A stretch of 64,000 nucleotides of DNA, taken from NCBI RefSeq assembly GCF_000003815.2, contig NC_049992.1:9794337-9858336 (forward strand), written 5' to 3'. The position numbers were made by a program, and so were the translations under genes. Positions 15,801 to 48,627 of the stretch are shown here, in pieces. The notes under the pieces are model-generated. The model was not told where the DNA came from, did no database searches, and was given only the letters and a program-made list of their open reading frames with translations. How positions within the stretch are numbered: position 1 is the stretch's first letter; each line of letters opens with the position of its first letter. The DNA comes from Branchiostoma floridae. Lineage: Eukaryota > Chordata > Leptocardii > Amphioxiformes > Branchiostomatidae.

Positions 15801-18800
15801 TTGTGCACAATAGATACATTTATCCTTCATTAGATAGGACAAGCAGTGTTTTTGCTTCAATAGGAAGCAGGCTGAATAAAAATTCTAACTGGAAACTGTG
15901 ACTCCTCTGCCCACCCCCAAAAAAAGTCTAGGGTCGGCAGGTTTTTCTAGGGCAGGTAGGGAAACAGGAAACACGACATTTTTTTTCCTTGGCCTTATGG
16001 AACTGAACCTAAACTTTGGAACGTATAGCTACAAGTCCAGTTCCAATCCAGTACAGGCACGTAGCACTATCTGCTACCTAAGAGTAATGAAAATAATTTG
16101 GGTATCAGTACAGAAAATTCAGGCACAGGTCTGGACCAGTACCTGGACCTGAATTGTCAGTGAAAGCTTGTGTCCTCAAAGCTGGGTGGTAACAGCCAGG
16201 AAAGACATGCTGTCACCTTTGACATGTGTCTATGGGGACTGAAAGCGGTCTTCATCAGACAAAGTTTGACTGTGGAAATTTGGTAGCATTACTATAAATT
16301 TTACTTCACTGTTGTTACTTCATTGGACCTCAAATGTTTGAATATGCCGGTATAATCTGAGTGTTCATTTTCTTATCAGGTCCAAAATCAGGTCTTGTTT
16401 TTTTCGGACCGGTCCAACATAAAAAAAACAATGTTTTTTTGGTGTGCTGCAGCTGGTACCCAACCCTATGCCTAACAGTAACAGTTGATAATTGCAAGGA
16501 TATTATTCACCATACTAGGGTAATCCAACTTCCCATACTGTACATGTATGTTGATCGTGTTTGTTATATGGATAGCCATATTTTGAATATAGACATCCAA
16601 ACGTACCAGATGCAGCTTCAAGCGATCATCGGATGTACATGGGGATTTGATTTTACGTTATTCAAGATAGACCATTCACAGAGGTTTTTAGGTTGCATTC
16701 CAAACATTGTGTTAGGCGGGCAGAAGATACAACAAACATCTTTGTATTGGCTAGGTTACCACCAACATTAAACCACTGCAAAAATGTCAACATTTGCAGT
16801 GTGTTATCAGTATGAAAAACCTACCAGTAAGTATTATCGGATAGTGATATTTTTCCCACAACTGTCACAAAAAAGCCCTCAATTTGCTCTATTATAACCT
16901 ATCATGGGAGAAATGTGACTGCTTGACCCTTCCAGTTGGTGACAAGCCAACAAAATCCAATCAGTGCACCAGTGAGCAGACAGAATGTTGATCTGCCAAG
17001 TTCAATGTTGTTCTCTGAATAAAATACTTAATTCAGCATCAGGGTTAGGCATATAATATATATATATATATATATAGCCCATCTATTTCACTTTGACCAT
17101 CATAGTGTGATACTTTATTTGCATGCATGGTATGAAAATTGTACACAAGAACTGTAGGTATAGTGCTTCATTAGCTGATGGCATTTTCCCAACAGGTACT
17201 CAAATGTAATGATATAACATTAGAATATGCCTCCACCCGTCCCACAGCTAGTTTTGCCCTACATCGGCTGCCACTACAGTATATCTATCATCCTGCATTG
17301 ACGTCATGCGTCATCATTTCTTCCAGTTTGGGCTGTGTCTTATTTCCTTTATTGAATTGGCTCCTGGCATTCAATCAATTTTGTAGAGTGCCTGCAGGTC
17401 CCTGATCCAGTGTTACAGCTGTTATTGATATGAATAGGTTAGCCGGGTCGATAGACAGGATATTGACTTTTTTCTTTACTGCATAGACACTGATTAGATA
17501 GCAGAGTCACGGCTGCCCCACTACCGAAATGCTGAATTTTGATACGATATGTCACGATATATCTATATACATGCACGTCTTATATGTATTTATTTATGCT
17601 GGTCATCAATGCATTAATCAAATATCTACATGTATTTAAGTGCAACTACGTATGTCGAGTATTTCCTTATCCTAAAAATTCCTATTTCTTATGTCATAAC
17701 TGTGATTTGGCAACTACAGATGCCTACTGTGTAGCTATGAAACCAACTTTACTTCCCATTTATCCATTTGTCACTTTGTGACAAACTTTTCTTATACATT
17801 GTATATTGAATCAATAATGTTTATATATTCTTAAGTGAATCGAAATTTAAATCAAGACAACTACTACATGTATATGCATAGATTTCACTTTTCAAAAAAT
17901 GCTACTCTAGCGATGTATTCACATTTTCCAGCATCTTTAGCTTTGTTTGTGCAAGATTGTTCAATCTTTTACTTTTTTTATGTTCAATTGTAGAGTGAAA
18001 ACCACCCACCCTCTCCAGGGGACCTGCATGCAGCTGAACAAGGAATCTACTTCAGAGATGGTCACAGAAGGATTGGTATGTACAGTGAACTTCTAGAAGG
18101 ATCTATTCTTAAAGATCATCATTGAACTCTGCCAGACACGAGAGATCTGGGCAAATCTAGGACATGCTCCCCATGAAATTTCTAATATTCTAACTTCACG
18201 AATAAAACTGAGTTAGATTGAAATGCCTTTTCCTTCATTTTGACAGGCAAATTTCAATACATTTTTAGACGTTTTGAGGTACTGTAATTTTTTTAAGATG
18301 CCCGAAACACCTGTCTGACAAGAATGGTGTTGAACTAGTCCAGGGTTCTAGCTAGTGGGCCCCTACGCTAAAATTTGTGACCCCTACGCTAAAATAAGGG
18401 CCACTATGCTAATTTTTAACAAGTGTAGTGGTGCTTTGCTGTCATTTGTTTGTTCAACAATGACTAATCAATGTCTGACAATGAAAAATGATGATATGCC
18501 ACTCAAAACTGACCCAAAAATCCTAACTTTTAACTCTACATCTTCAAATCTCACCGTGAAAGGACCAAGACCCCCCCTTCCACACCAATCTCCTGATTAG
18601 TCGCTTCGCTACCATGCCATTCCCACTACGCTAAAATAAAATCCTGGCTAGAACCCTGTAGTCTGTTTAACGCAAACTCCGCTGTCCAGGGCTGTAACTG
18701 GCCCCTCCCCTCTAGGGGGCCGGCGGATGTTGGGCGGGCTGCTATAAGCGAGATTTATTCAGGCTAGTGTTTGAAGATTATCATCTTTGTATCAAACTTA

Positions 18801-21800
18801 AGGCTGGTCATTTAGTAAGACAGATGATATGTATATTAGGTGCCTTCTAATTTTGTAGAGTAATTGACTGCTCTCTTTTAGAGTCAAACAGTATAGAATT
18901 GATAACCCCAGTTGGTTGTCCCTGCAATTTGCCATTCCTTAGGGAGTCTTTAGTTGAACCAGAACACATTGAATATTCTGTGGTGACAGAATGGTCTAGC
19001 TCGCATGCCGCTTGGCCAGACCATCCATTTTGTATGACAGCCTTGCGGTTCCCAACCCAAGGCATGATGGGATTCTGATATCAATTGAATATTTGAGGAC
19101 CTGGTGTTATTCCCTATATAGAATCAATTGTCACTGCTGCCAGGGTGATTCATCCATAGGGAATAGGAAGTATATTATATGAATTCAAAATTACAACATA
19201 ATTCATAATGTGTATATAAAATACAACATTGTGTATTCTGTATCACCCGAGGTGCCAGTCTGCCCGCAGGTCGAATTGCCTGATGGCTAAAGACTACTCA
19301 TAAAAAGGATGAATTTGACACATTGTTTCAACCTGCGCCAACGACTTATTCTTTAAGAACATCAATTCGAGAAGAATTTGAACAAAAGAACTCTGTTTGC
19401 TTGCACCTAAATAGCAACGGCAGGCATGCAGTGCATTCTATTTAATCGATGGAAGCCTGTGTGATACAGAAAATTATTACCTGGCCTGGAACACCTGTAT
19501 CGAACATTATCGCATATGCCACTGTATGACATACATGTAAATGTATGTTTGTATCTCATATGTGTTTAGAATTAACCCACTGTGAAGAGGAAGTTTCACA
19601 CTAAAGATTATATGTCATTAACTATCCCCTGAATCATTTACCATGATAATGTGCAGTCAAGATAATGATTTTTTCAAAATCAAATACAATGGCTACCAGA
19701 TGGCTACAATACTATCGTGTGGTTTACTTGTCCCCATTGTTGCATGCCTCTAGCCGCAGTGCCAATTGGGTCATTATCATATATTGGAAATTCACTGCAA
19801 TGCTGAGCAATGCATTATTGGCTTCTTCATTATGTTATACAGCTGTCTGCACAATAGATCAATGCATAGCCCCACCCACCTCTGTCAAAATGTAGAAATG
19901 CAAAATGCAAAATATTTGACAGACACACATACACTTTATGATCTGTAATTACTAATTGGTTGAATCACTAGTACAGTAGTAGCTATATATGCATGCTTTC
20001 ATTTTTGAACTGCTTTTTTTTTGGTTATACTAGTAGTAGTCAGAATCTGTCTATTATGTCCACTTTTCATTTTTATGTTATGGTCTGCATCTGCACAAAT
20101 ATGGTTGAGAGCTTTTCATCATGTTAAACCTCCAGGAACTGTCTATGCACATAGATGAAAATACATTTGGCAAATGCATTTCAGACTACATGTAACTGTG
20201 TATGCATCCTCTTGCCCCTATTTCATAATTTATGCAACAGCCCTAACTGCACTTAATATCCTGTCAATGAAGATCAATAAGATACCAAGATAATAGATGC
20301 ACATACATATATGTATGATGTGCAGTATCAAGATTATTCAAGTCAAGTCAATAGCACTGTTGTCTTAAAGTCTATCTTAAGCTAATAGATTTACCACTGA
20401 TGATTATTTTTATTTCCAAATTATCACTGCAATAAGTGGGACTGTCCTTTCAAATGGCAATTTAAGGCCTTGTTGGAGGAAAGGCCTTGTTGGAGGAAAC
20501 ATTCTTCAAGGACCTTATAAAACAGGGCTCGAAATACCACCTGCATATGCAGGTTAGTGCAGGTAAAATTGGAGCTGTGCAGGTATTTCTGGTGTCTACC
20601 TGCACCTAACCTGCACTGGTCCATGTACTTGGTTTTATACATACATGTCCTATAATGTAGGTGTATATGGATTGTTATTAGCTGCATTGACTGTTACCAT
20701 CTATAAAGTATGAAAGAAAAAATAGCAATGGTTCCTGAACAATTTAAGCATGATCCATACTCCCTATATTCAGAGTGGTGCAGGTAAAGTTTGTCTGGTG
20801 CTGGTAATTTTCGATGTTACCTGCACCAGTGCAACTATGCAGAAAAAAAATATTTCAAGCCCTGTAAAATGTCCACCTGATGACACTTGTCAATAATAGT
20901 TAAGGATATGTGTTCTAGCCAACTTTGGAGACATTATAAGCCTTCACTTCTGTCCTTAGATATTTGGATCAGCTATGGTTTTATACCATAAGAATGATAA
21001 GAAAGTTCATCTGTGTTGGTAAAATACATTATAGAAAAATTCTAACACTTAACTTCCAACACTGATTTAAACTGTAGGTACTTATAGTAATTACCCCTCT
21101 AAATTTTCATCAGAAGGGTCATTCTGTGAGCAAGGTCGACGGAGATTAACCCAAAATTTAGAGGGGTAAGTCCCTATAGTTTAACTCAGTGTTGAAAGTA
21201 AAGTGTTAGCATTTTTCTATAAAGTATATAATGATAAGAATTTGGTTATCAAAGTAGATATGGTGTTACACTATTAAAAACTTCTGTCTTCGATTTTCTT
21301 TCAGATTTTGTGCTGGTGTTTGAAGAGGAAGACCCGGGAAGCAAGAAGAGTAAGAAGAAGAAGAAGAAGGCAGTTGAGTCTGGGGAGGTGAAGGAGAAAT
21401 CTCCCGAGGAGAAAAATGATCAGTACAGAAAGAAGTTCCTCAACAACCTCAGAAAGGTGGGCTCTGTTGTTATTGTTATTGACCTCAATACGACAGTAAT
21501 TATTACCCCAAGTGCCGCCATGGGACTGTAGGTTTTGAGCAACTCACACCAAGAAGGAATCCTACTCTTTTCGATAAGTGTGGTGGGATCTTTAACATAC
21601 TCAGGTATGGCTGTCCTCAAATACAGGACCTCTAATGTCCTATCCGAGGGATGGCTCTCGCCGAAGATAGGTATTCATTTTAACCTGAGTGAAGTGATGA
21701 AATTCCCAAGGGCACAAGATCGGGAAAAGTCAATAGTTTTGAACCCGTTACTTCAAATTCTGGGGTCTGGGTCAAACACCTTACCGATTGCACCACACGA

Positions 21801-24800
21801 TGCCACAAGTACAGCTATTGACAGTGCAGCAGTGCCAAACTAGCAACTAGATGGTTATTGTTCCCATGAATATATTGGGCTTGTAAAGAATTAAAATCTG
21901 TAGGTTTAAATGACGATGAAGATGAAGTTATTAGATACCTGACTGAAAGATGTTGGTGTGTCATATTCATTATATGATGACAACAGCTAAGATAAATCTT
22001 AGTTGATAGCTAATCAATATCATCTAACTCATCTGAGCTAAGAGGCAAATTTGGCAAGATAGATATTATTCATGTACATATCTTTGTATTCTATAATTGT
22101 TTGTTTAGAGGATGTTATCACAACAAAAAGTGCATTACTCAAATCAGGTTACTGTCAATTATGAAATATCCACTGTGACAGTAGTTTTACATTTTTGCAT
22201 GACTACTTGCCATTAAGTCATCACACCACAAACATGATATTATGCACTGTCTTGTATTATGATACTACGGTTATTTCAACAATAAACTTAAAACACTGCA
22301 AGCCCCTATGTCATGAAAAATTAACATTTTACTCCTTACCAACGTAGGTCAATTTACTGTTGTAAAAGAGGATAATGCATTGATTGTATTTTTCTTGTGG
22401 TTGTTCAAGGCTGGCTGTGAAATGGAAGAAGAGATCTCAAGCACAGGAAAGAAGACTATCACCTACATCAAGGTTTTCGCCTCCTGGGATGTCCTGTGTT
22501 ACTATGCTGAAGAGCTCAACTTTCGGGCTCCATTGCAGGTATAATGTAGCACACTTTTGGTATATTTTAGCATGCTCAGATGTGTTACTTACACTGATGC
22601 AGTAAGCTTTATTAAAAAAGGTAAAACGATATAATACAGTATTCAGAACTTAATTACAAATGCATGTCTTAAAGATAGTGTATATTATCCAGTATTCAAT
22701 AATTTACCAGAAGGTTGTACTGTAATGTAAATGAAAATTTGCAAATGCAAAGAATTGTCTTTCCTGCAAAGTATGGTTTAATTTTTTCAGCTGTGTCAAC
22801 ATCATATTTGTTCAATTTGTTACATCTTTAAATTTATTATATTTGATCAATTTGTCACATTTTTGAATTTATCATATTTGTTCAATTTGTTACATCTTTA
22901 TAAAGTATATTTGAATGCATGTTAGTCATTATAGCCGTTATGATTATTTTTCTAACCTGACCATAATTCTTGGTTTTGCCTCGATGAACACATGAATTGC
23001 TAACAGTTAAGCAGTGAGGATATGATCGTGAGTAGAAAATGGCGCTATCGATTCGCGCACATGATACTTGGAGAGACGAAAGAACAAATGGTTAGAACGT
23101 ACATATGCATAATACCAGTTCTCTTCCTTCAGCATGGAAATGTTTTGTGTTTGGATGTTACTCTGCTGCAATGTGTGTCAGCATGGCTTTTGAGAATGAA
23201 ATAATATGCTTTCCCCTATCTATCTGACTGATAGAAAAACTTCTACTGGTAACACTATTCAGCTCTCTATGGCAAGCTTAATTCTGTCTCTCAACATTCT
23301 TAAGCCAAGGTTAGAGGTGAGAGTGAGAGTATTGTACTTACTTACTTTACTTTGGTCGAGCTCCCGCTCGAGCCAAGCTAGAAAGTCGTCTCCACTCCTC
23401 CCTGTCTTTCATCAAGGACTGGATTTCCCTCACATCATGTAGGTTAGTGTCGGCTCTAAGATTGTCGATGTAGTTGAAAGAGTATTGTAAGATGGAGGAA
23501 AAACAGGTATGACACTTTTCCAACACAAAACTGCGGGGTTCATGAAGCGTTTTCAGTGAAACTTTACAACACTAATTTTACAAGTCAGATCTTTATATGC
23601 CAATTGTGATAAACATCAGGAATAGAATTTTGAGGAAAATCTCACCAAAATAAGCGTTAAACAGAAAAATAGGATTGTTCTTCGTGATGATACTCTCAGA
23701 TATAATTACTGACTGGTAAAACATATGCTGATGAAGTTATCATATTTACTGTACATGTTCATTGTATATATTTACTTTACGGACATCTGTTGTAGAAATG
23801 AAAGACTAAAAAAGAAACTAAAAATTTTTGGGCATCATTATTTCCTTAGAACAAAGTATAGTAATCAGCTGAGGATGGTTTTATTGGTCTTCTTCAATTC
23901 CTTTACATTTCATCTTCTTTCTTGTCTTAACATGCATCCCACAGCTTTGATGTAGTTTTATCAATGTTTTGTGAGCTTTCAATATTTACATATTCATAAA
24001 ATATATTAGACTTATATTCTTTACTATACTGTGATTGAGCATGTTAATGATGACTTCTTTATTTTCACTGCCATTGAGCTTGCTACAGTTTGTAGAGGGA
24101 GCTTTTCTCATGAAATAAGTTGTGTATATAACCCTATATACTATATAGGGAATATGTTATTTTCTATTAGATGTTAAAGCTTGTGTCCATGATACCCTCT
24201 CAGGCTCACCCTAACCCAAGTGAGAACTGGTCGGCAAAGCTGCTGGAAAGTCTGCATATTCCCAACATGATGGATCAGGAAGTGCCAAACAAACCACTGG
24301 ACTACTACACCTGTGTCTTCAAGAAGTCCAAACTGGACAAGTAAGTCATTGAGAAACTACTGGAAATACTAGGACACCATATGTCTATAAAGTACAATTA
24401 TATAACAGGGCTCGAAATACCACCTGCATATGCAGGTTAGTGCAGGTGAAATTGGAGCTGTGCAGGTACTTCTGGTGTCTACCTGCACCTAACCTGCACT
24501 GGTCTGCTGGGTTTTATACATAAATGTCATATGATGTAAGTGTGTGGATTGTTATTGGCTGTATTGAATGTTACTATCTACATGTTTAAAGTATAAAAGA
24601 AAAGAAATAGCAATGGTGAGAATATTTAGTATGATCCATACTTCCTGAATTCTGGAAGTGGTGCAGGTAAAATTTGTCTGGTACAGGTGATTTTCAATGT
24701 AATGCAAAGTATTTCAAGCCCTGTATAAAGATTGCATGCTGTGTTCAGAATAAGTTACAAAATGTACTGCTAGATAAAAGAATAAAAGTGCGCAATGTTA

Positions 24801-27800
24801 TGATTAGGATGACACATGCAGAAAAACATAATTTTTTTTTCTTTTTCTTCCTTTTCCAGGTTTTTGGGGAGTGAGAACCGTGATACCTTCTTCTCTAATA
24901 CACAGAGACACAGAATAGTAAGGATGATACACTGTATTTTAAGTACATGTTTAAGCCCTGAATAAGGTTTTCAAAGGTTTCATGCTACTCTTCTAGAGAC
25001 TTAGAGACTTCATTTGGAAAAAGGATACATTGTATACATTGACCTGTGACCCATATATACAAAGTCATGTACATTCATGTACATAGACCTATGTTATGTA
25101 TTCTGGGGAACAACAAAATGAACAAGTAATGCAGTTCTTATCATTGGCAATATTGGCCATTTGAACGGGTGGTTGATTTAGAATCTATTACTAGTATAGG
25201 GCTCAACTTGAATCAAATCACTAACATCTTTTAATGTTGTGTCCTTGGGACAGGCATTGGACAATAATGTCCATACTAGATTGCTAGATGGTAGTTTGCA
25301 TAGAGATGTCCTCTCTTCATTTTGTTAAAAAGAGCTAGAAGAGCCTCCCTCAGTCTGGACAGTGGTACTAAGTAAGTAAGTAAGTGTACTTACTTAGTAA
25401 CATGATGTATAGCATCTGTCTTTTCTGTCATGAGCAGTGAAAGATAAGCTCATTGTTGAGTGCAACTCAGGTTCAATATTACGTTCACTTTTAGCATGAC
25501 AATGTTAGGATGATTTTGGTCTTAATGTCACTTTTTTGGTTCCTTTTTTCAGGTGTATGAGATACTTGCAACAACACCGTATGGGAAAAGAAAGAGAGCT
25601 GAAATTGGTAAGTGCAGTTGCTTGAGTAGTTGCTATTTGGCATATCTTATTACCTTGATGTCTAACCTTTATCGACATACATTGTCATACTCATATGAGT
25701 CAGCTTGGTTGAATTTCATAACAAACAATCAGGTCCAGGTTCAGGTCTAGATCTGGACTAGGACCTAATCCTCTGGACCTGCACCTTACCTGTACCTGAA
25801 TTTTCTTTACCAGTACCCACCCCTACATATATATGAATCAGCTTGGTTGAGTTTTATGATGAGCTGTTACACCTTCTGGCATACTTTTAATGAGGTTGAA
25901 ATGAAGTCTGTGAGAAAAAAAAATCAGAAGCAGGTGTTCAATGATGTGTCATCTAGTGTGCAGAGCTAGTGTTCATCATGTAGAATAATCCTTGTGGTAT
26001 GATACTGACTCAGTTTATGAGCCTGGGTAGAGTGCCAACAGAATACACGAACATATATAGGGAAGCTGTGCCAAGAGAAGTCAAGCCATGCGGTTCAAAA
26101 AATCAATTTTTTTCCTATTTATTGGACCCGTCTCAAGCCTTGCAGTTATGCGCACTGATTGCTAATGGATGTTTTTGAGTTTAGTGTATTTGACATCTGC
26201 GTGGAATGCTATAAGTGATCTGCCCTGTAAAACCTTGATAGCATTACTGTAGCTGCTTTAAAGCTGTCTGCGCCATTTGTCAATATTATTAGAAAGCTTG
26301 GTGACTCGTTTCTAGACGTGAGAGGACTACATAGTACATATAAGGCCTGTAGCCATGAAGCTTGTATTAAAGTCTGTACTGACTAGTTCAACCATGAACC
26401 AATAGAAGAAATATTATCATATTACTATTATTAGGTATGGTATAAACACATTGAAACAAGCCGCCATGCATCAACACATTTATGCAAGCAAACGATTGAT
26501 TGATTGATTGATTGATTGTGTTGTACAGCAAATTAATTCTTATCAATCAGTTTCCCTTATATACATACATGTACCTTTAATAAATGTTGAAATGCATGCA
26601 CACAGACAGAAGATATTGAGGACTCATTCCAAGTACAGTAGAAGTCGGCTATTGGCATCATCGATTTGTCAGCGAATTTTACCCGTTTACCCGACTTAGT
26701 CCAATAACCCTAGGAGAGTCCAAACGATCGGCGGGGGAGGGGGGTGCTGGTTACGGACTCAGGGTTGAAATAACCATACACACACATGTCAAAACTGGTA
26801 TTATATACTAGATTTTATTCATGAACATGCATGTTTCATATGCAGAAGTAACATTGTAGTTAATATTTATCCAAGTTTCTTTTTTTCCTTTACAGGCACG
26901 TGTCCGTCATACGTAACGAGAAGAAATAAATATAAAACAAAATACAACATCCGCTGCGTCTCGATCCAATCACATTTCAGTGCAGAATGATATCACACAC
27001 ACGTTTATACATATCCGACACATCATCAACATTTTAATGTAACGTTAACATCATGTGGTAACGTTGAACTGTAAAAAAAAATTATGCTCCGATCCACAGA
27101 AAATTGTAGTTTTAGCGTGACTCTCAGCTTTAGATACCGCTGTACAGACTACATTTATCGACGTGTAATCGCTCAGTCCGATCATCGTAAGGTGAAACAT
27201 AACATATTTACCGATAAGCATTAGTTTGATTACAACTTTTAAGCGGAAGGTACGGAAACTCTGCTGAAAATTGACGATTTTGTGAGCAATGTAGTGTAGC
27301 GCTAAACAAACAAGCATGCCGATGCCGTGGTGAATGACGCCAAAACTGTCGCTCGTCTTCCAGCCATATTTACAAACTCGGAACAAACTGGGCTAAATGC
27401 CCGAACTTATCTAACTTACAAACATTTCAGCTTCATAATGGCTGGTTTTGGGTAGACGATGTTCACAAAATCAGTGGGAATTTTAGCTCGAAAATTCACA
27501 AACATCAGCGCGTATTAGACAAAAGAAAAATGGCGCCGATGCTATCCCGTCACCCTTTGCGCTTTTGTATTGCGTAACTCTCGGGTGCCGCCGGCGCGGC
27601 GTACCAGCGTTATTTGTCCATTTCAGCGGCAATTTTGACGGTTTTGCCGATCGAATGCATTTGTAAAGGCCGCTGATAGTTCATTTTCGACTTTTTGTCT
27701 TGTTTTCTATCACATATTTACGGGCCAGTATGCGATTGACCTGACGATATTTTACCCGAATGTCCGATTTATGCCATAATAGATGATGCGATTATACCAT

Positions 27801-30800
27801 TGTATTTACAATGGAGTGAATGGCAAATGGTTTAGGTTTTCAGAATTCTATCCAAATCCCAGACTTATGCCAATAGCAGTGATGCAATTAGTTGGTGTCC
27901 ACTGTACATGTATTGTTTATGTCAATTATATGTATCATTGGTTGCTTCTCTCTTCTTACAGGGATTGACCGTCTTATAGATGAGGGAGCTTTTCAGGCTG
28001 CCTATCCACTACATGATGTGAGTTTTTATACATGAATGTAGGGAAATTGAAATAAAAATTTTGAGTCATCATGAGTATGAATAGGTGTATTTGCTGCAAA
28101 TTTCATATCAGATTCTATATACGAATAACCTATTGTCAAATTTAAATGAAGCAGGAAATTGAATCAGATTTATTTGATAATGTTTATGTATGCAGTGGAA
28201 ACAGCATGGTCAATGCCAAAGTATAAAGAGGCTGTATACCTTTAAACTTCAGCAACTGTCAGCAGCCAATGAAAGACATGTACAATGTGTATTCACCTCT
28301 GAATGTAATTGTAAAAGAAATAAGTAATAATTTACATAACATCGATGGTAATAGATACAGTTGTAGATGATGCACAAAGAAATGTTAATATTTATAGCTC
28401 ACCACATTGACTACATTGCATTAAAATTTATTAGTGAAGATGACCCTGACAGCTTTATAACCCTTTGAAACCCAAGAGGTCCTGAAAAAAGCCATCCACA
28501 GTGACTACATTGTATTTTCATATCTTAAAAAGTTCATCATTAGTGAAGATGACCCTGACAGCTTTAACCCTGTGAAACCCAAGAGGTCCTGAAAAAAGCC
28601 ATCCACAGTGACTACATTGTATTTTCATATCTTAAAAAGTTCATTATTAGTGAAGATGACCCTGACAGTTTTAACCTTTTAAAACCCAAGGGGTCCTGGA
28701 AGAAGCCGTCCCACTCCTTACCAGCGGAGCAGCTGAACAGGCGCCAGGTTCTGTACGACTACTGGGCACGCTGGGGGTGTTGGTACAAGTACCAGCCACT
28801 CGACCACATCCGGGAGTACTTCGGAGAGAAGATTGGCATCTACTTTGCCTGGCTCGGTAAAGAGGATACGGTCACATTAGGTCGTGCGATCGTTGTAGGA
28901 TTTTGATGCCATAGGGCTTTTAAGCAGGCCGTGACAGAACCATTGTCATTGTCCTTGCGTAGTGTCATAATCTGCATACAAAAATGTAGACTGACTGACA
29001 GTTACTGTAGTTACTGTAGTAGATAGAACTAACCACCGACATGGATGCAAAACAGCATTTTGTGTATACCAAGACAGTTTAACTTTGCAGGAGACGTACA
29101 TTTGTCCTCCAAAATGCCCAAAGTCTAAGCGATCGTACAAGGATCGCACGACCTGTGTGACCCCGCCCTATAAAAAGATACAGTCACCTACATTCTGCAT
29201 AATCAGTCGATCCCTGATCAGATTTTATTTAGTCTTATAGTGACAATTACAACATGATCTGTCATGTTGCAAAAGTATGCAGAGCATACTTTAATTTTAC
29301 TAAATTTTCAGTATTTTTTTCAGGTCAAAATGACAGACCAAAATGAATAACATTATTTTTGCCTTCAGACTTTATCCATAAAATCATGAATATGTGTGGT
29401 TTTGATAGAAATTGCGTCTATACCCATGATGTACATTAAAATTTGTAATGACACAGTTTTAATTTGGATTTGGTGTATAATGACACAGGGAACGCTAATG
29501 ACTGAAAGCTTATACTATCTACAATAATGTTATTGTGATAATTGTCATCACATGTAAAAGACATTTGGTCTACAAAACCTTACTTGTATGAAGACATTGC
29601 ACAATAATCACTTGGCTACGGCATGATTTTCAAAACTTTGTGGTGCATGCATGAATCATGGCTAATGTGAATGGAATAATACACCGAGAGATCGTTGTTT
29701 AAAGCACATGGTAATGAGTTGGTGTTTTTTTCCAATCAGGTCATTATCCTTGTCTTAATTTTTATAGTCTTTTGTAATGTCTTTTGTTCACTATACTAGC
29801 CTGCATGCATGAAAATAGTATCTGCATAACCTTGCAAAAAGGTCACTAGAAATTGACATGTTGCAGTTCTTTGACCCGACAGAGTGTGTTGCTTAGAAGG
29901 CATATCTTGTGTAATACTATTAACACCCCAAGAAACAGCTGGTGTTTCATGATAATGATTGGCTGCAAGACTAATTCATTTAATCTTCCAGACTGCACTC
30001 CCCCTCCCTTCTTGTTACTAATCACTTTCCATCCTGCATGATACACTTATAACACTTGTGCACCTGGTCTTCCTTGCTGTTTAGGGCTCTACACTGCATG
30101 GCTCCTCCCTGCCTCTATCGTGGGACTCATGGTTTTTCTTTATGGTGTCCTGAGTATAAGTACCAACACACCTGCGTAAGTGTAGTCCGCCTCCTACATT
30201 GTCAGGTCATCCTATCTGCATTCTGTGGATGATATCAAGACTTTGCCTCAAACAAATAACAGAAAAAAGTCTTAAGTAAAGGTCTGGTGGTGAAGTGCAA
30301 ACATTAGTTCTATTAGTAGTACAAAAAAAATGTACATATTTAACTTTTCAACAACCTGAATTTCAAAATCTAGGTTCACCCTCTAAGTTGTCACAGTGTG
30401 TCAAAGAAGGTCATCACTGTAAAAGTTTAATATACATACGTCGCAAAATGTTATCTGGAAGTTGCAGGATTCAAATTTTAGGAGAAATGAATCATTTTTG
30501 TTCCTGGACTATTTTGAAGAACACGCTGCTGTCTGACTTGTAGAGTCTTCTCTTTTGACCATAGAGGGATAACAAATTCTGGGTCTTTGCAGTAATACCA
30601 TCCACAGAATGGACTGAAGGTGACCTGGTGTGTTAGGATGGCTTGGAACAGGTTTTTAACTTGATGTCACAAACTTGATGTCACAGAGCTGGACTACAAA
30701 TGGTTCATCAATTCCAGAATTTTTGTGATGCCTAGCTGGAAACATTAAAAAAATTTTGATCCAAAAATGTGAGAAAACTGAAATCATTCACAATATTTTG

Positions 30801-33800
30801 GTCGGGGAATTTGAGGGTGGATAGAAAATCACCGGAACCACTGCCAGCTCTGTTTGATGTTGTGCTGTTGTCGTGTTGTTTAACCGATTGTTGTTGTGTA
30901 CGTGTGCATTATTGTGAACAGGTCTGTACACAGCCAACTTGATCCCTGCCGCTGGGGTAGGGCTGCTAGTGTTCTTGTATGGGGTGGTCACAATGGGAAC
31001 TAACGTCCCTGCGTAAGTCCCTCTTTATGTTCTACAACACTTTTCTTTCGTTTTCAGGTAGTGTATGTTTATATAAGCTAGTACACAGTGTGAAGTGCAC
31101 ATGTGCAGTAACTAGTGTAATGCATTGTGCCCATGGTCATTCGTAAACATTCTCCTACGCAGAGGGACCACAGTCATATTGAAACTCCTTGTGGTCACCT
31201 CTGCTGTCTGGAGCACTCAGATCAGTTACTCAGACTTTCTGACCGCCCTTCTTATAAATATTAATGAGCTTACCCTTATATGGGAATCAGCAAATCAGCG
31301 CCCAATCAGGCCTTTTTGTGATCCCTTTTGAAAACAAAAAGGCCAAGAAAGGCCTATTCTCTGATTGGCAGAAAGCTGGTTTGTGGCGACGCTCACAGTA
31401 ACCGCTGGTGGGCCTCCAGACAGCAGGGCCCCAATAGGCAGTCAGCTAGTGCCGTAGGGGACCGTGCGTAGGAGGATGTTCGTATTGTACATGCTCTGTA
31501 TTACCAAGGCAAGGGAGGCTTGCTTAACTTTGACATATATTACCCACAGCATATCACACCTACTATGCACGTGCATTTAAAACTGTAGACTAGCTTATTA
31601 GATCTTGATGTCATCAGGCTAGGGATGGATCTGGAAGGCATGTTTGTAAATGGGATTTTGCGTGAAAAATTTGTTTAAAGAAAAAAGTATGTAGTTTGTT
31701 TTCAGCTAGCTTTATTCAAATTGATCCTACAGTAGTATTGTTTCTCAACAGCTGTTGAAGGTTTTTTTACACAACTTTCCATTCCCATCTTTCTCCCTGC
31801 AATATTCCTTTAGTAAGCATTTTCACCACCTCTCAAAGTCATTTGTGTGATGAAAACATTTTGCCCCGGACACTGAGGTAATGTTACATTGTTAATACAA
31901 TGTATGTTGGCAATACTTACTTTTTGTATCTTGTTGGCTGTTCGCAGTTTTATCGAAATAGATTTTTGCATACACTTAGCTAGTGTGAGGCAATGCTGTA
32001 GACTTGTATAAAAAATGGATCAATTTTGTGTGTTGCAAAATTTGGCCTTGACATATTTTTTTGACAAAGGAAAAATATAGGCACTATTTTTGTGGTAAAT
32101 GTCAACAACTGAAAATATTGGTGTCCTTGATATACGGAATAAAAAAATCTAATTTGTATTATGCAAAGGATTATGCACTTGCACCACAGCAAATATGAGG
32201 TGATATATGAACCATAAGTATGCTATGGTCATTATGGACCAGCAATGACAAAATCCAACAACGACTTAAAACAAATGTAAAGTTCTACTACATAGTGACT
32301 TGAAGCATCTGCTTTGAGGTTACTGAACACTCAGTGTGTTGATTCTAACAGGAGAGAGGTGTGCAACAGTGGTGGTGACTTTGTGATGTGCCCTCTCTGT
32401 GATGAGAACATCGGCTGTGCTTACTGGAACCTGTCGGACACATGCACACAGGCAAAGGTATGTGAAGAAATTAGAGCCCAACTTCATGCATATGGCAAAT
32501 TGAATATCATAAATTGTTTATATGCATAGCTCTGTTAAGTATGTGTTGTGTAATGCTAGCAAAATTATTCTTTGTTCCAAAATAAGAATTTAACATATGA
32601 AGCCCACGAAAATCATTCTTATATCTTGGACCTGTTAAACTCCATTCGTAATATTGTTTGCCATGTCACCAATATTCTTCCTAGTATAGACAAAATACTA
32701 AGATAGCAAAAAGTCATAGATGTTCTTTTGAGCACCTTGTTTAGAATATTAAAATGTGTATGATTGAATTGTAATTTACATGGCATGTAACATCTTTAAG
32801 CCAGCTTAGTTTGCACAATGAATTCTTCTATAAAGTGCATTATTCATTATGAAATGCCCTTTCTTGTAATAACCAATATACCATGTGTGCTAGCTACCAT
32901 TCAAAAACCAAAATGTCTTTGAAAATTGATTATGATGTCAGCAGAGATGTGGAAAAAATGGCGAAAGCTGTCAAATGATATATTAATAATTGAATAGGTT
33001 TGCTTTATTTGAATTTCAGGTTATCATAAAAGACAAATGTTTGGTACCTTTTTGTGATGGTTTGCTTTGCATTTCCTTTCTATTTTAGATATCATACCTG
33101 TTTGACAATGAGGGCACAGTCTTTTTCAGTGTGTTTATGTCTTTGTGGGGTAAGTTAAGTTTCTTTCAACTTTTGTTTGGTGTGCTTGGTAATTTTCTTT
33201 GGCATTTCAAGGTCATTGTTGCAGTAATCAAAGCTACCCGCTGCAGTTTGATATCATATTAAGTATATGACATCAGACAAAAGTAGTGATTAGTTGAAAA
33301 ATGTCCTGAGTTTCAGATGAACATGACATTGTGACTATACAATGTAATGTGCACTAAAACAGTCTTCCCTGAAAATTTGCTTGTAGTTGAGTACATTGTG
33401 AGCAAAACGAAAGGAAGCTGCGATGACCATGAAAAGTTTTGTATCATAATCTCATGATATTTAGATTTTAGTTTTTCATTCTAAGGTATATCAGATTTCT
33501 TCTCTTTGAACCCCATACTTTATTCCTCTGCATTCAGTTTATTTTTTTCAATTCAGACAATCATTACAATGCAATTGGTCTGCTCTGAACAGTGGCCACA
33601 TGTAGTTTAGCTTCACACAAACTGTACTATGATACGATAAACTTAACATGACTAGTATGTACAGATGCACATGTACTGATATTGTTACATGTATTGAACA
33701 TCTCAATTTCAATGGTGCAGGTGATTATACAGTTTTAGTTGAAGAAAAAGATGAAAACCTGAACTAGTTGTAATTGTTGTATTTCCCACTGGTCCTCTGG

Positions 33801-36800
33801 GAAGAGTGACTTAGGGACAGGGCTATCCAGTTTGAATAACGGATATTGATTACCGTAAAATGCATTTAATTTTGCGGGGATTTAATTTCGCGGTTGCTGG
33901 AAAAAGGACTTCTCGCGGTGGTTTTAAGTTCGCGGTAGTGCCATGCACTGTAGTATCTTACTGCCATGGAAAAATGTGCGCGGTGGTTTTAAAATCGTGG
34001 TGAAATGGCCACCGCGAAAACCGCGAACATTAAACCACCGCGAAAGTTTCTGCATTTACAGTAATTGAAGGCGAACATGCTACAAATTCAAACACACTGC
34101 ATTGTCAAGACTCTCTACAACATTGAACAGTTTCATATACTCATCTTACCACTTACCTCTCTTCCCTACCATCAGATTGCCTATCTCTTTGACCACCCTG
34201 GGACTGTCTTCTTTGCCATTTTCATGTCTTTCTGGGGTGAGTGTGGTGGCCTAAGTAACATTCCTTCACACTTTTAAAGGTTATGCGGTCTGGTTCCAAG
34301 GTCAAATGTTCCAGTATCAACAGCATTGAGTGAAAACATTTGGACAATAATGTTTCTGCTCATTTTAACTTTTTTTATTAGATATTAATTTATATGATAC
34401 GATAATCTAAGTATAACTATTAAGATGTGTAATGTACAATGTCATGTAGATAGTTTTCGGTAAATCCTGAAGGTTTAGCTTTTTATCCATTTTATATGTG
34501 AACATATAGTGAGGCTGTTTATAGCAACATGTGACTGTATTGTCACTGTTCACATGGCAGTTGTGATGAAATCAGGGCTCGAAATTCATTTTGGGGATCA
34601 GGTGCACCCAATAAGAATAGAGTAGAATGTCTGAAAAAAAACTAATCACTAGAACTTCCTTTTGTTCATAACTAAGACAACTAGACAGAAATAGGTCTTG
34701 AAATAACTTTCCCAACTAAAGAAAATTTAGAAAAAAAAGTTCATAAGATCGCATGACAAGTGAGAAAATCGCAACCATAGAAGACAAAATGAATCTGCAA
34801 AAAAAGCCTCACACAAGGCCTTGGCCTTGGTTTCTTCTGACTCCGAAGAATCACTGTCGGCTTCTTCCTCTTCTACAACATTGGGCTTCGAGGCTGACTG
34901 GGGCCACAGATGGCCCGGCGATGTTGTTGTTTTCTTCGCACAGATGGGTGAAGGAATATTGAGTTCCTGCTTCTTCTTCTTGCTCTGAAGGTGGTCCTTC
35001 TTCAATATCAGCATCATCATGAGGGCTGATGTAGTGGTGTAATTCCTATGAAAATATTTGGGTGCACCAGTGCACCCACAGATAAAACTAGGTGCACAGC
35101 TCCAATTTTGGCTGTATTTCGAGCCCTGTGAAACAATCTTGTTCAGCAACAGGGGGTATAGCTTGCACAACAAACATGCAATTTCTTTTAAATGTATATT
35201 ACCCTTAATGGTCAAAGCTTGAATGGTATGTTACACATACATGTATTCAGAAGCTTAAGGTTTTGCTAGGAAAGCAAGGAGTCGTAATAAGGGTTTACTT
35301 CATGTAGTACTGATTATCCCCACCAACCATTGCAGCTGTCACCTTCCTGGAGTACTGGAAGAGGAAGAACGCCAGCCTTGCCCACCACTGGGACGTCATG
35401 GACTTTGAAGAAGAAGAGGTAGAACCGTTTCTTACAAAGTTCTCCCTTTACTGAAGTACATGTAGCCTTTTGGCATCAACTTACTTGCACTTACAGAGTT
35501 AAGGGGATGTCTCACTGGAATGNNNNNNNNNNNNNNNNNNNNNNNNNNNNNNNNNNNNNNNNNNNNNNNNNNNNNNNNNNNNNNNNNNNNNNNNNNNNNN
35601 NNNNNNNNNNNNNNNNNNNNNNTGCTGCGTTCTAATTGAATTTGTGATACCATTGACTTCATTATTGGGATATCATGCAAACCTTGCAAGTATGACTAAA
35701 AAGACAACAAAAGCCATAAACCTGAAAAATATTTTGTTTCTATTGATGAAATTCTTGTAGCTGCCTGTCAAATCACTCTGTCGCAGTGATGCTGGCAATG
35801 AAGCACATCTTCAAGTTCAGTACCACAGACAGAGCCCGTGTTTGCAGTGGTGATTTTACATTGATAGCTGATTTGGGAAAAGAGAAACATAATTATGTTT
35901 TTTGTAAAAGACCACAAATATTTCAAGATTTACAGTATCAATTTTCCTTTCCCAGGAGCGCCCTCGGCCCCAGTTTGCTGCAATGGCACCTTCTATGGAA
36001 AAGAACCCAGTAACAGGCATCAAGGAGCCGCACTTTCCTGACGAGGATCGCTTCAAAAGAATGATGGCTGGGGCAGTCATCATTATCTTCATGGTAAAAG
36101 AAAAAAACATTCAAAGATACCAGTGCATGTCTGCCAGGAATGCTGACACTTGTTATTTTTTTGTTCCTTAAGCCCCTGTGTAACATTCAGGACCTTCCCA
36201 CAACTTGGCTTCCAACCATTCCCCACCAAGATTGGCACTGGGTTGGGAGTAGCCTGTCATCCATCCTACATGTACATTGTATTTTAGCTTGAAAATGACT
36301 TTTCCAATAGCAAGTAAAACTTTATATTTGGCTGACATTTAAAGACTAGGAGGCAACCTCCCAACCACAGATAACTTTGCTCATGTCTAACTCCCAGCCA
36401 TTGTCTGAAGAAGATCAGGAGGCCATGGTTATATGTGAATGACTGAAGCTTTAAAAATGTTGTGATAATATGCATTTTGTTCAACTACTTAGTATTTCAG
36501 TACTGCTGTATCTGTTTCAGATGGTGATGGTGCTGATCTTCGTGCTGGGGGTGATCATGTATCGGGTGTTGATCAGCATCCCGCTATTCCAGTCCGTCAT
36601 GTTCCGCGCTCAGGCCTCCAACATCGCCAACATGAGCGGAGCCTGCGTCAACCTGATCCTCATTATGGCATCAGGAATTGTAAGAATAGCAGTTACATTT
36701 TAAGTTGCATAGCTAAAAGTAACATCAGGTACATTACCAGATCAAGTAGACAAAGCAACTAATGTATGAATTGTGAACAGCATACTTATTTGGATGTGAA

Positions 36801-39800
36801 GTGTATCATACAGAAACACATGCTTACAAGAGAATCAAAAAACAAAGATGGCACTTGATCACTGTTTTTGATTGTTACCAGTAATAGATTTTGTTACCAA
36901 AAGGTGATTTGGTACTAATATTATAATTCTGACATGATGATAACTTTCAGGTGTACCAAAAGATTGCAGAGAAGCTTACTGAGTGGGGTAAGTGCTTCTT
37001 TCATATTCAGTGTTTTTGAAATTATTGAATTCAGTATATTAGTATATCAACACAATGTTGATATTCATATGACACTTGTTTATGAAAGAGTGATGTTGTT
37101 TATCACATCTCCTTCATACATTATTCTAAAGAACAAATCAACATTGCCTTTCTGTTAGGGCCACAGTATTTTGTGCATGTTGAAAAAATTGAATGCCAGA
37201 TTCCATTGTTGTGCTCTCACACAGTATTGCACAAAAAGCTGTGTTTGTTCCTGTCCATGGTGCTGAATCAGATGTGCCTTCACACAGCAATGCTCTGCCA
37301 TCTTTTGTTTTTATCGAAGAATGATAAAACCAAAAATAAAATTTTGTTTCCATATTGATGACAGCTACCTTAGATTTTAGTGGCTTTTGCGGCAACCTTT
37401 GTCCATGGTGATAAGTGGTAATGCATTTTCATGTCTCTTCCTCGATTCAGAAATGCACAGAACTCAGACTGAACATGAAGACAGCTACACCTTCAAAGTC
37501 TTCATCTTCCAATTTGTCAACTTTTATTCATCCATCTTCTACATCGCATTCTTCAAGGGACGGTCAGTATTGTGTGCTCTGTTGCCTTGTGTACGGAACC
37601 GAGATATATTTTTCCTGTAGTTCTGAAAAGGATTTTGAAATGATAAATTGAGGTTTTGATATAGGCTTCAGGAATATCAGCAATCAAAGTGCTGACAATG
37701 AGGATACCCCATTTGTATTTGGAAATTCTTTGCCATATTGTTGTCCATATTGACCATGTAGAACTGTAAATTAACGCTGGGTGTGTAACAGGTACATTTC
37801 TTTCCTTTGAACAGATTCGTTGGATACCCGGGCCATTATAATAGGTTCTTTGGTCTCCGCAACGAAGCGGTAGGTCTTATTGCTATTATAACACTATTAG
37901 ACACTAGTTTTATGTATCACTCTTTTACTTCTCTTAGTTCTTGAGACTATATATGCAATTAGCCCTCGGGCATGCTTTTGCAAATAAACTAATTATAACT
38001 CACTGACAGGCCTTTATTTTTCTATTCTTAAAATCTTGTTGTCAAGATAAGTCTATTGTTAAAGGCATTGGAGTTCCTATGAATACATATTTTACCCTCA
38101 AGTAAAACATTCAATATTTACCAACTAAAGCACTAGTCTTATGGCAGAAGCTCGCAATGTATAAGGGATAATGACCCTGCCTCTTGATCTTAATGTCAGG
38201 AGTTCAAATCCCAACTGTAGGTACACTCCACAAAAAAAGGGTCACAATCCTTAGGGCATTAACCAGTTGGGATGTTTTCTTGGTACCTTAACAAACTGTG
38301 CATATAACATCTATCTTTCTCCTCATCGTGTTAGCTCTTCATTGAGATAAACTGGTTTGAGATGACTCTGACCTTGTCCCTTTTTGTTGTGGCGCAGTGC
38401 GGACAGGGCGGCTGTCTGGTGGAGCTTGCCCAACAGCTAGCCGTCATCATGATTGGTAAACAGGTCATCAACAATGCACAGGAGATCATAGTACCGTAAG
38501 TGTAGTCCATCCTTTTGCATTTGCCATAATTTTTGCCAAATTGGTGGTGTGGCAGATTTTCATCTTTACCGCACAGAGGCTGTTGATCGCTGAAAACAAA
38601 CTAGTACAGTTAATATAGCCAAAAATTGTACACTCAGCTAGTAAGCCCAAGTCCCAACAAATGGAATCCTATGTACATGTATATTAATCTAATTTGAAGT
38701 TTGTAGATACCAGTTGTATAAGATTTATGTAGTTTGTATGTCCCTGTTTTCACACTAAGTCCAGGAAGATTAGCTACTATGTTAGCTAGTGGATGTAATA
38801 AAGTATCAAAGGAGAAGACTTGAGTTTAAAGGTCTGCTACGCAGTTTTTTGCGCTTCAAACTGAAAACAAAAATCCATTTTCCGGCCATTTCTTTATATA
38901 GTTAGTTGAATCAAGCCTACCACGTTACGGAACACTATTCAAGGTATGTCGGGAGTCGATATTTTCGCCGTGCGAGCGCGTTTGAAAACCTGTGAATCTG
39001 CACACCCGCGCTGGGTTTCAGCCATTTTGTTTCTTCCGAACGAACCGTTGATGATTGATTCTTGTTCGAATTCTCACCGGTGCCTAACTAGGGAGGTCAG
39101 AAAGTTACAGCGCACGTAGGACGAAATGTTTGTAGACTAAACCTCTACGTTGCAAATGTGAAATAATGACACAAAAGTGTCAAAAAGTAGTAGTAAATCT
39201 GAGATTTCTTAGTTCTAGAATATTTCAAATTTGAGCACAAAAAACTGCGTAGCAGACCTTTAACATTCCCTCTTTGTTATTTTAGAACAGTGTTCAGCCC
39301 ATGATTTTATTAAACCTTTCTAAGTCTGTCATTGTGAGATGTGGGGCCTGACCAGATAGAATGTTGAGATATTGACATTTTTTTTACTTGTTCCCCACAG
39401 TAAAATCAAGAACTATTTGCAGCGGCGTGAGGTGGCAAAGGGGATGGAGAAATCCACAGAGCCAGCCAGATGGGAGGAGGACTACCAGCTGATCGAAAAT
39501 GAGGGACTGTTTGAGGAATACCTAGAGATGGGTAAGCAGAAATGGCATGGAATATGTTCACTGTAGACTTGTTTGGAAGTACAATCACATTACAATCCTT
39601 AATTGCTGTATGTGATTTGCAGAGTCTGACTTAGTTCAGGCATGTTTAGTAAGTAAGTATTTGGCTTCGTCTATTCTGCACTTTATCTCCTTGTGGCTTT
39701 AACGGTCAATTTCTAGGCCTTATACATTCAAATGCTTTGGTTAGGAAATCCACTTTGTCATGGCACTATGGTCCTTAAAATGCTAGTCAAGAGCAATTAC

Positions 39801-42800
39801 ATCCAGCATGATGTTAGAAAAATGCCACTATACTAGTGTAGTTGCATGTCTACCCTAAAGTGTCACAGTATACATGATTTCTTCATAAAATAAATTGAAT
39901 TACAGTTTTATAAAGACTGTGTTGTTGGTTTTTGCTGTCAAGTTTTGACCAAAAAAGTAATGACTACAATGATGTACAACTTGTTGGAAAGACTTATGCG
40001 ATGATGATCAGCTTATGCCACTTGTCAAATTGTGTGATGATGATCAGTTGATGCCACTCACAATCACTGTTCATTCCCCCCTCTACCCCCCAGTTATCCA
40101 GTTTGGGTTCATCACCATTTTTGTGGCTGCCTTTCCCCTGGCTCCGCTGTTTGCCCTGCTAAACAACTGGGTGGAGATCCGTTTGGACGCGCACAAGTTT
40201 GTTTGTGAGGTGCGTCGCTCGGTGTCCGAGAGAGCTCAGGACATCGGCGTGTGGTTTAACATTCTAGACGCTCTGGTTCAGCTCGCTGTCATCAGCAACG
40301 TAAGTTTGTCTCTTAATATGATTAGGTTATTTATTTTCGCTGGAAGTTGATTTTGTGTTAAGATTTCAAAAGTTTTCATTGTGCTTTAAGTTGGCAGTCA
40401 ACAGTAACTGTAGCACAAAAACATTTGCATAAAACACATTACCACTGTATACATTTTAAGATTAATATGACTGCAGTAAGATTTATCTCATATTTTTGTC
40501 GTGACTGCGTGCATAATCTGTGATAGATAGACAAAGGGAAATATTTCTGGTACATACAGGTGTACATAATACTATCTGCATCAAAGTATTTATAATCCTT
40601 CATTACTTGTTGTCTACCATCAGAATCATGTCAAATATGATGTAAGAACTTTTACAATATATTTTGTCAGAAATGTGGTCTGTATTCGTTCATCATGTAT
40701 GTTTCCTTTGGAAATCGTTACAAGTACTGTTGCGATTTAATTCAGATCTTCTTTTTTTTTCTTTCCAGGCGTTCATTATTGCAGTAACATCAGAGTTTCT
40801 GCCTCGGCTGCTGTACAAGTATGAGAAGAACTGGAACCTGGATGGATATGTCAACTTCACGCTAGCGTACTCTCCACCTGGGTCCATGTCTCAGGAGTGT
40901 AGGTATGTGGGCTTTTGGACTCATCAAGTTTCTGTGCGACTCTAAGCACTGTAACTTTTTATCCCGTTCCTTTGTGCTGATAGCCATTTACACTAACACT
41001 GTCCCTTTCATTGGTGCTGACAGACATTCACACTTACTCGGTCCCTTTCCTTGGTGCTGATAGACATTCACACTAACACTGTCCCTTTCCTTGGTGCTGA
41101 TAACATTCACACGAACACTGTCCCTTTCCTTGGTGCTAATAGACATTTAAACTCCTCTGAATATCATGTACATGTATGATTTTCTTCAGGTACAAGGAGT
41201 TCCGAGACAGAGACGGCAGCTTTAGCTTGTTCTACTGGAGACTTCTTGCTATACGACTTGGTTTTGTCATCCTATTTGAAGTAAGTGTGAAATATCTTTT
41301 GTAATATGTAAAAAGAGGTCAGCATTTCATTCACAAATGGTGTGTAGATATCTTGTAAAAAGGCTTTATAAACTTAGTTTCATTGATATCAGTTATCAGT
41401 TTAGTTTGTAGAATAAATTGAACCTTTAGCTTGTTGTTCCACTCTTAGACTGAGTGTGAAGTGTTTCGCAATTATTTCACTCCGATCTTATAAGTCAAAA
41501 GGTTATGTGTTTGCTTTCCCTGTACTGTGATGGTTACCCTGTTCCTCCTGGACTGATTTTCTCTGCCCATTTCTGGCAGCATGTGGTTTTCTTCATCTCA
41601 CGGCTGATTGACATAATGGTGCCCGACATCCCAGAGAGTTTAGAGATCAAGATCAAACGGGAGCGCTACTTGGCCAAGCAGGCCTTACAGGACCAGGAGC
41701 ACATCATGGTGAGTTCAGGGAATTGTTTGTAACGTCTTATATTTTGTTAAATAATATGCAGTTGATTTGATGAATATTTTCCCTCTTTGTAGTTTAAAAT
41801 CTTGAAATCAAGTTTCCACACGATATCCCTGCATTCAGGATTTTAGGATACTAAAGTTTAAATGAACAGTCACTTTGTCCATACTTACATTAAATGATCA
41901 GTTCTACATTGTATATGTAGATTCTTTTAGTCCAAGTCATCAGATAGAGCTCTCTATCTTTCACTGACAAGACTGTTATGTGTTTGATCATATACATGTA
42001 AATGCCATTGGGTAGTTTTTTGGTGGGGTGTGTTTTTACCCTATGTTTGTAATCAATTTGACAGTCTCAACCTGCATTGGTTTTGACAGTGCTGAAATTT
42101 AAGCCAAGAAAATGTTGAAACTTAAGCAAACCTTTTAAAAATAGCTGTACCTGTCCCTTGTCCCATACTTTAATTTCTGCATGGTTCACTGCTGGTAAGG
42201 TATAGATTTGTAACACTGCTATATTTTGCCCTGAAATATGGCATAGAAAGATCATTGTTTATCTGTGCCTTAAAAATAGATTTTCCATTGGATTACAAGA
42301 TTTGATAGCCAGCCAGATTTCTTAAATCGTTTTGTTCTGAAAGAGTTGTACACAATACAAAATGTACATCAGTAAGTCTGACTGCTGATGCTGCAAGGGC
42401 AAAATTCTTTTTTAACATTTGGTCTAAATGATTTAGGCCCTCCCAGTATGAAGCTGAATTCATTCTGGCATGCATAAAGAGTTGTTACTTTCTAATATCA
42501 AATAGATGCATACAGTCACACTAATTATGACACATGACAACGTTTTTGTATGAATATCTAGATTTTTGTTTGTGTCTTATTTTTTTTCCATCATACAGTA
42601 ATGGCCAGGAAGTTTTATGGACAAATAATTTCAGAGTAAGCCATTAATTTTTGTATGTTTACAATGTTATCATGCCTATTTTCAGTTTTTTTTACATATT
42701 ATATATTTGATAAGTTCCTTCCCATTTTTTTTTTTCATTTTTTTTAGATAACATATTTTTTTTTTTTTAGATAACTTGTATACCCATGAGTTCCTTAAAA

Positions 42801-48416: not shown

Positions 48417-48627
48417 TACTGTAAATGCAGAAATGTTCGCGGTGGATTAATTAATGTTCGCGGTTTTCGCGGTGACCACTTCACCGCGAATTTAAAACCA
48501 AAGCGAACATTTTTCTATTATGATATCAGATTGCAGTGTATGGTGTTACCGCGAACTTAAATCCACCGCGAAAAGTACTTTTTCCCGCTACCGCAAAATC
48601 CCCGCGAACTTAAATACATTTACAGTA
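48417..48627. mobile_element. MITE, TACTGTAAATGCA family, copy 2
   Basis: A 211-bp foldback, TACTGTAAATGCAGAAATG to TACATTTACAGTA, rich in CCGCGAA/TTCGCGG. It is inverted relative to the copy at 33851. It sits about 200 bp past the anoctamin poly(A) signal. Confidence 0.9.

Follow-up and report, generated by a model that had tools for sequence, protein, structure and literature searches.

In the available sections of PMC9741552, substitutions between tandem duplicated exons are described as a known kind of event that is enriched in ion channels; in the human data set, collapsing related genes removes the significance of the ion-transport terms. The exon swaps of channels, CACNA1C among them (available sections of PMC9741552 and PMC5740500), resemble the locus described here in that adjacent homologous exons that agree in length and phase, of old origin, occur in a membrane transport protein. 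They differ from it in that here two neighbouring helices each have their own pair, and in that our pairs are known from genome sequence alone. Splicing also changes the properties of an anoctamin, ANO1/TMEM16A, through the segments a, b, c and d. According to the accessible part of PMC8480199, these segments are present or absent and none of them falls in a helix: they occupy the N terminus or the first intracellular loop, with c and d in that loop shortly past TM2. While the ANO1 segments are optional (PMC8480199, same part), the exons that we describe, 12A and 12B, would exchange an equal-length segment of a helix.

The word ‘anoctamin’ is absent from the main texts of PMC9741552 and PMC5740500, as far as these are available (their supplementary gene tables are outside this scope). 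Among the literature matches listed, taken at the level of titles and the starts of abstracts (most subscription papers and all supplements being outside the scope), none reports an anoctamin/TMEM16 with mutually exclusive or tandem-duplicated exons. One candidate report of an anoctamin exon pair, PMC12592175, was rejected, as the matching text in its available part is the title of a reference on CaV1.2. The pair 12A/12B is well preserved and belongs to a known kind; among those matches, no such pair was found described for the anoctamin family.

Our data come from the window, i.e., the whole 64,000-nt stretch of Branchiostoma floridae DNA that was analysed. The features on which the argument depends are as follows.

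21305..41708, + strand: modelled part of the anoctamin gene, 24 exons (20 constant exons and two pairs)
30085..30175, + strand: exon 10A of the TM1 pair, 91 nt, phase 1 to 2
30922..31012, + strand: exon 10B of the TM1 pair, 91 nt, phase 1 to 2
32352..32457, + strand: constant exon E11 (TM1-TM2 loop), upstream partner of 12A/12B
33089..33149, + strand: exon 12A, 61 nt, phase 0 to 1, start of TM2
34176..34236, + strand: exon 12B, 61 nt, phase 0 to 1, start of TM2
35336..35418, + strand: constant exon E13, downstream partner, with the E and K of the third Ca2+ site and an acidic stretch

Exons 12A and 12B, which belong to an anoctamin (TMEM16) gene, are very probably true coding exons that were duplicated in tandem and are used in a mutually exclusive way, with TM2 as the predicted target of retuning. 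The exons of the gene were found with bait fragments and by eye, and were then read off the window; the start and stop codons were not located, and the model assumes one base ahead of E1. Exon E7 has a weak acceptor (-0.3). The 823-residue product of isoform 10A/12A matches the Pfam Anoctamin family (PF04547) with 566.7 bits (cut-off 28) and the anoctamin dimerisation domain (PF16178) with 221.8 bits (cut-off 22). For isoform 10B/12B, the best match among solved structures is mouse ANO1 (598 bits), followed by ANO6 (552 bits). We assign the gene to the anoctamin (TMEM16) family and predict Ca2+-activated channel or scramblase activity for its product. It may also group with vertebrate ANO7, which is an impression from sequence. 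Mouse ANO1 and ANO6 resemble the product both as its best sequence matches among solved structures and in the retention of Ca2+-site residues: all six primary Ca2+-binding residues of mouse ANO1 are kept (positions from the available part of PMC8480199), and conservation is 10/10 when the four residues of the third site are included (positions from the available parts of PMC8480199 and PMC8835819).

As neighbouring homologous exons of the same length and phase, 12A and 12B have the arrangement by which mutually exclusive exons are recognised. They are identical at 40 of 61 nt and 14 of 20 residues, and the six differences are S/A, N/H, E/P, S/A, V/I and L/F. The coordinates, length, phases and residue identity given for the pair in a first-pass annotation of this DNA were all re-measured and are exact; that annotation also listed the differences N-E/H-P, SV/AI and L/F, which are correct, and omitted the first S/A. 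Both copies have GT-AG splice sites, with the donors GTAAGT (12A) and GTGAGT (12B). Scored with a matrix built from the splice sites of this gene, leaving out the scored site each time, the donors of 12A and 12B (11.6 and 9.8) take a shared first place and third place among 24, and all 164 decoy GTs from the introns around them score lower than both. The acceptors are middling (4.4 for 12A and 7.2 for 12B), matched by 2 and 1 of 139 decoy AGs, respectively.

The likeness of the two exons does not arise by chance, because 12B, read in frame against 12A, scores 85 (BLOSUM62) while the best AG-61-GT frame in dinucleotide-shuffled introns scores 16 (n = 300). With no splice sites required, the best frame in shuffles reaches 32 (n = 60), and the runner-up in the real window, counting both strands, reaches 37. 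We also searched the exon peptides against positions 18001-46000 (threshold E 0.05). Only pairs 10 and 12 and the start of E7 gave copies, along with a weak E2 match (E 0.012) that is probably due to chance; this search found no third intact exon pair in the anoctamin gene. The copies of the E7 start are arranged in tandem at 28402-28711, about 110 nt apart. The upstream ones have stops, and they show how decayed exon copies look in this gene.

Divergence within pair 12 is concentrated at silent sites (pS 1.01, pN 0.19; 5, 2 and 14 differences at the three codon positions), although these estimates are rough since the pair has only 20 codons. The flanking introns of both pairs show 26-32% identity over 50-100 nt and 25-45% over the nearest 20 nt. 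In neutral simulations with the same number of changes, none of 20,000 runs kept the observed number of identical residues for either pair (14 for pair 12), and about half acquired a stop. With silent sites saturated, little replacement divergence and no relatedness between the flanks, 12A and 12B are best read as an old duplication in which both copies are constrained as protein. The TM1 pair encodes the same residue at 19 of 29 full codons, with both copies open (pS 0.72, pN 0.28, estimated silent distance 2.4).

We consider it very unlikely that only one copy of pair 12 works and that the other is a decaying duplicate, rarely or never spliced in. This reading draws on the presence of decaying copies in the same gene (the E7 start, with its stop-containing upstream copies) and on the fact that pair 12 is known here from genomic sequence only; against it, 12A and 12B are both open, share the same phase and have strong donors, and their replacement divergence is low while their silent divergence is saturated. 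If decay of one copy of pair 12 is modelled, P is 0.006 for a silent distance of 1.0 and at most 3.5e-5 at distances of at least 1.5. For pair 10, constraint on a single copy is not rejected at a silent distance of 1.0 (P 0.12) but is rejected from 1.5 up (P 0.002), and the distance estimated for this pair is 2.4. It is scarcely credible that the arrangement is an assembly artefact, in which two alleles or gene copies were set in tandem. An assembly gap of 100 N does occur in the next intron (35523-35622), but it falls outside the 12A-12B interval, and no neighbouring exon is duplicated along with the pair; the copies are not two alleles, because the surrounding introns are unrelated and silent sites are saturated.

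Mutually exclusive use of 12A and 12B, with each transcript taking one of the two, agrees with the reading frames. All four combinations with a single choice at each pair are open across 823 codons, so the four possible proteins that had been proposed are all available in sequence. The 12 combinations that include both or neither member of a pair all hold stops, as the first-pass annotation anticipated in stating that double inclusion or skipping shifts the frame; their first stop comes after 290 to 391 open codons. Doubling exon 10 while skipping exon 12, or the reverse, restores the frame arithmetically, yet stops lie in between (4 and 1, respectively). Transcripts with both or neither of 12A and 12B would thus be shifted in frame and would be expected to enter nonsense-mediated decay, and the safeguard visible at pair 12 is likely this frame shift with subsequent decay, a class of safeguard described for human exon pairs (PMC5740500, available part). 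The same facts could be turned around: pair 12 might serve mainly as an expression switch, in which doubling or skipping is deliberate, protein is lowered by decay and the residue differences are minor. That 12/12 double or skipped combinations reach stops with many exon junctions downstream fits such a switch, but one extra exon without coding constraint would suffice for it, while both copies are constrained as protein, and we regard it as highly improbable.

Returning to a protein-level choice between 12A and 12B, alignment places exon 12 at residues 400-419 of mouse ANO1, in agreement with the earlier assignment of the pair to the start of TM2. The earlier proposal of a mutually exclusive pair adjoining a similar TM1 pair in one gene is likewise supported by the sequence, the gene being an anoctamin. 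Of the 20 residues, 12A shares 15 with mouse ANO1 and 12B shares 11; with mouse ANO6, the two match equally (9 of 19 compared positions). The third-site residues E425 and K428 and the acidic stretch come after exon 12, in the constant E13. According to the available part of PMC8480199, the third Ca2+ site boosts Ca2+ activation of ANO1 at a distance, and TM1 and TM2 lie outside the TM3-TM8 pore region of anoctamins.

Exchanging 12A for 12B would alter six residues, which fall in the last part of the TM1-TM2 loop and in outer TM2, and would probably change the start of TM2 (N-E vs. H-P) and its packing. An altered outer TM2 could in turn change Ca2+ gating or transport, because inner TM2 (E13) bears two of the third-site residues and is followed by the acidic first intracellular loop. 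We hold this with somewhat more doubt than belief, and the functional step is weaker than the splicing behaviour and decay that we infer. The variable positions of TM2 show no significant clustering on a single face of the helix (10% of placements are as extreme for the helix part, 45% for all 20 positions), and the same holds for the variable residues of TM1. It seems unlikely that the TM1 and TM2 choices are coordinated (e.g., 10A with 12A) so as to switch between channel-like and scramblase-like transport or between high and low Ca2+ sensitivity. If the pairs are used as proposed, such natural swaps of helix segments would provide clean test pairs for the roles of TM1 and TM2 in gating and lipid transport, and anoctamins would be added to the ion-transport families in which tandem exon swaps have evolved. 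Taken alone, 12A/12B is another case of a well known kind.

As to how one copy might be chosen, steric blocking by a short intron, one of several routes to mutual exclusion, does not fit, as the introns around 12A and 12B (631, 1026 and 1099 nt) are too long. Both donors belong to the common type. Ungapped complementarity between introns did not exceed the maximum of its own 40 shuffles in any of 6 comparisons (both pairs, single genome), and there is therefore no sign of a switch based on competing structures. In whole-intron duplex energies, the intron before 12A paired with the intron after 12B is lower than 15 of 15 shuffles, while of the other two comparisons one is like its shuffles and one is higher; this measure is uninformative on local pairing and was not relied upon. 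Splicing-factor motifs were counted in 72 tests (9 motifs in 8 flanks of 300 nt). Across these 72 tests, the counts of CTCTCT upstream of 12B and of TGCATG upstream of 10A were each reached in 0 of 200 shuffles, and eight more counts gave values between 0.005 and 0.095; we treat all of these as leads only. TGCATG, which we take to be an RBFOX-like motif, occurs three times within 300 nt upstream of 10A (29802, 29806 and 30035), with further copies at 29644 and 29648 and one within 10A at 30095.

Several other elements were recorded in the window. The intron between 12A and 12B holds a MITE-like palindromic stretch (33851-34065); it recurs at 48417-48621, where 210 nt align at 79.5% identity, and as a fragment at 16758-16800. 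The intron after 12B holds a 167-codon open frame with an acidic stretch on the - strand (34730-35230), which matches no Pfam family, and the segment 34561-35130 is without a second copy in the window. A repeat at 24406-24730 is found again at 20523-20817 (84% identity), and several pieces of it lie within 5317-6010. Pieces resembling a quinone oxidoreductase gene lie on the + strand at 55394-56182; of these, 55742-56182 matches no Pfam family, and 55394-55657 scores 22.8 bits against ADH_N, just below the cut-off of 23.5.
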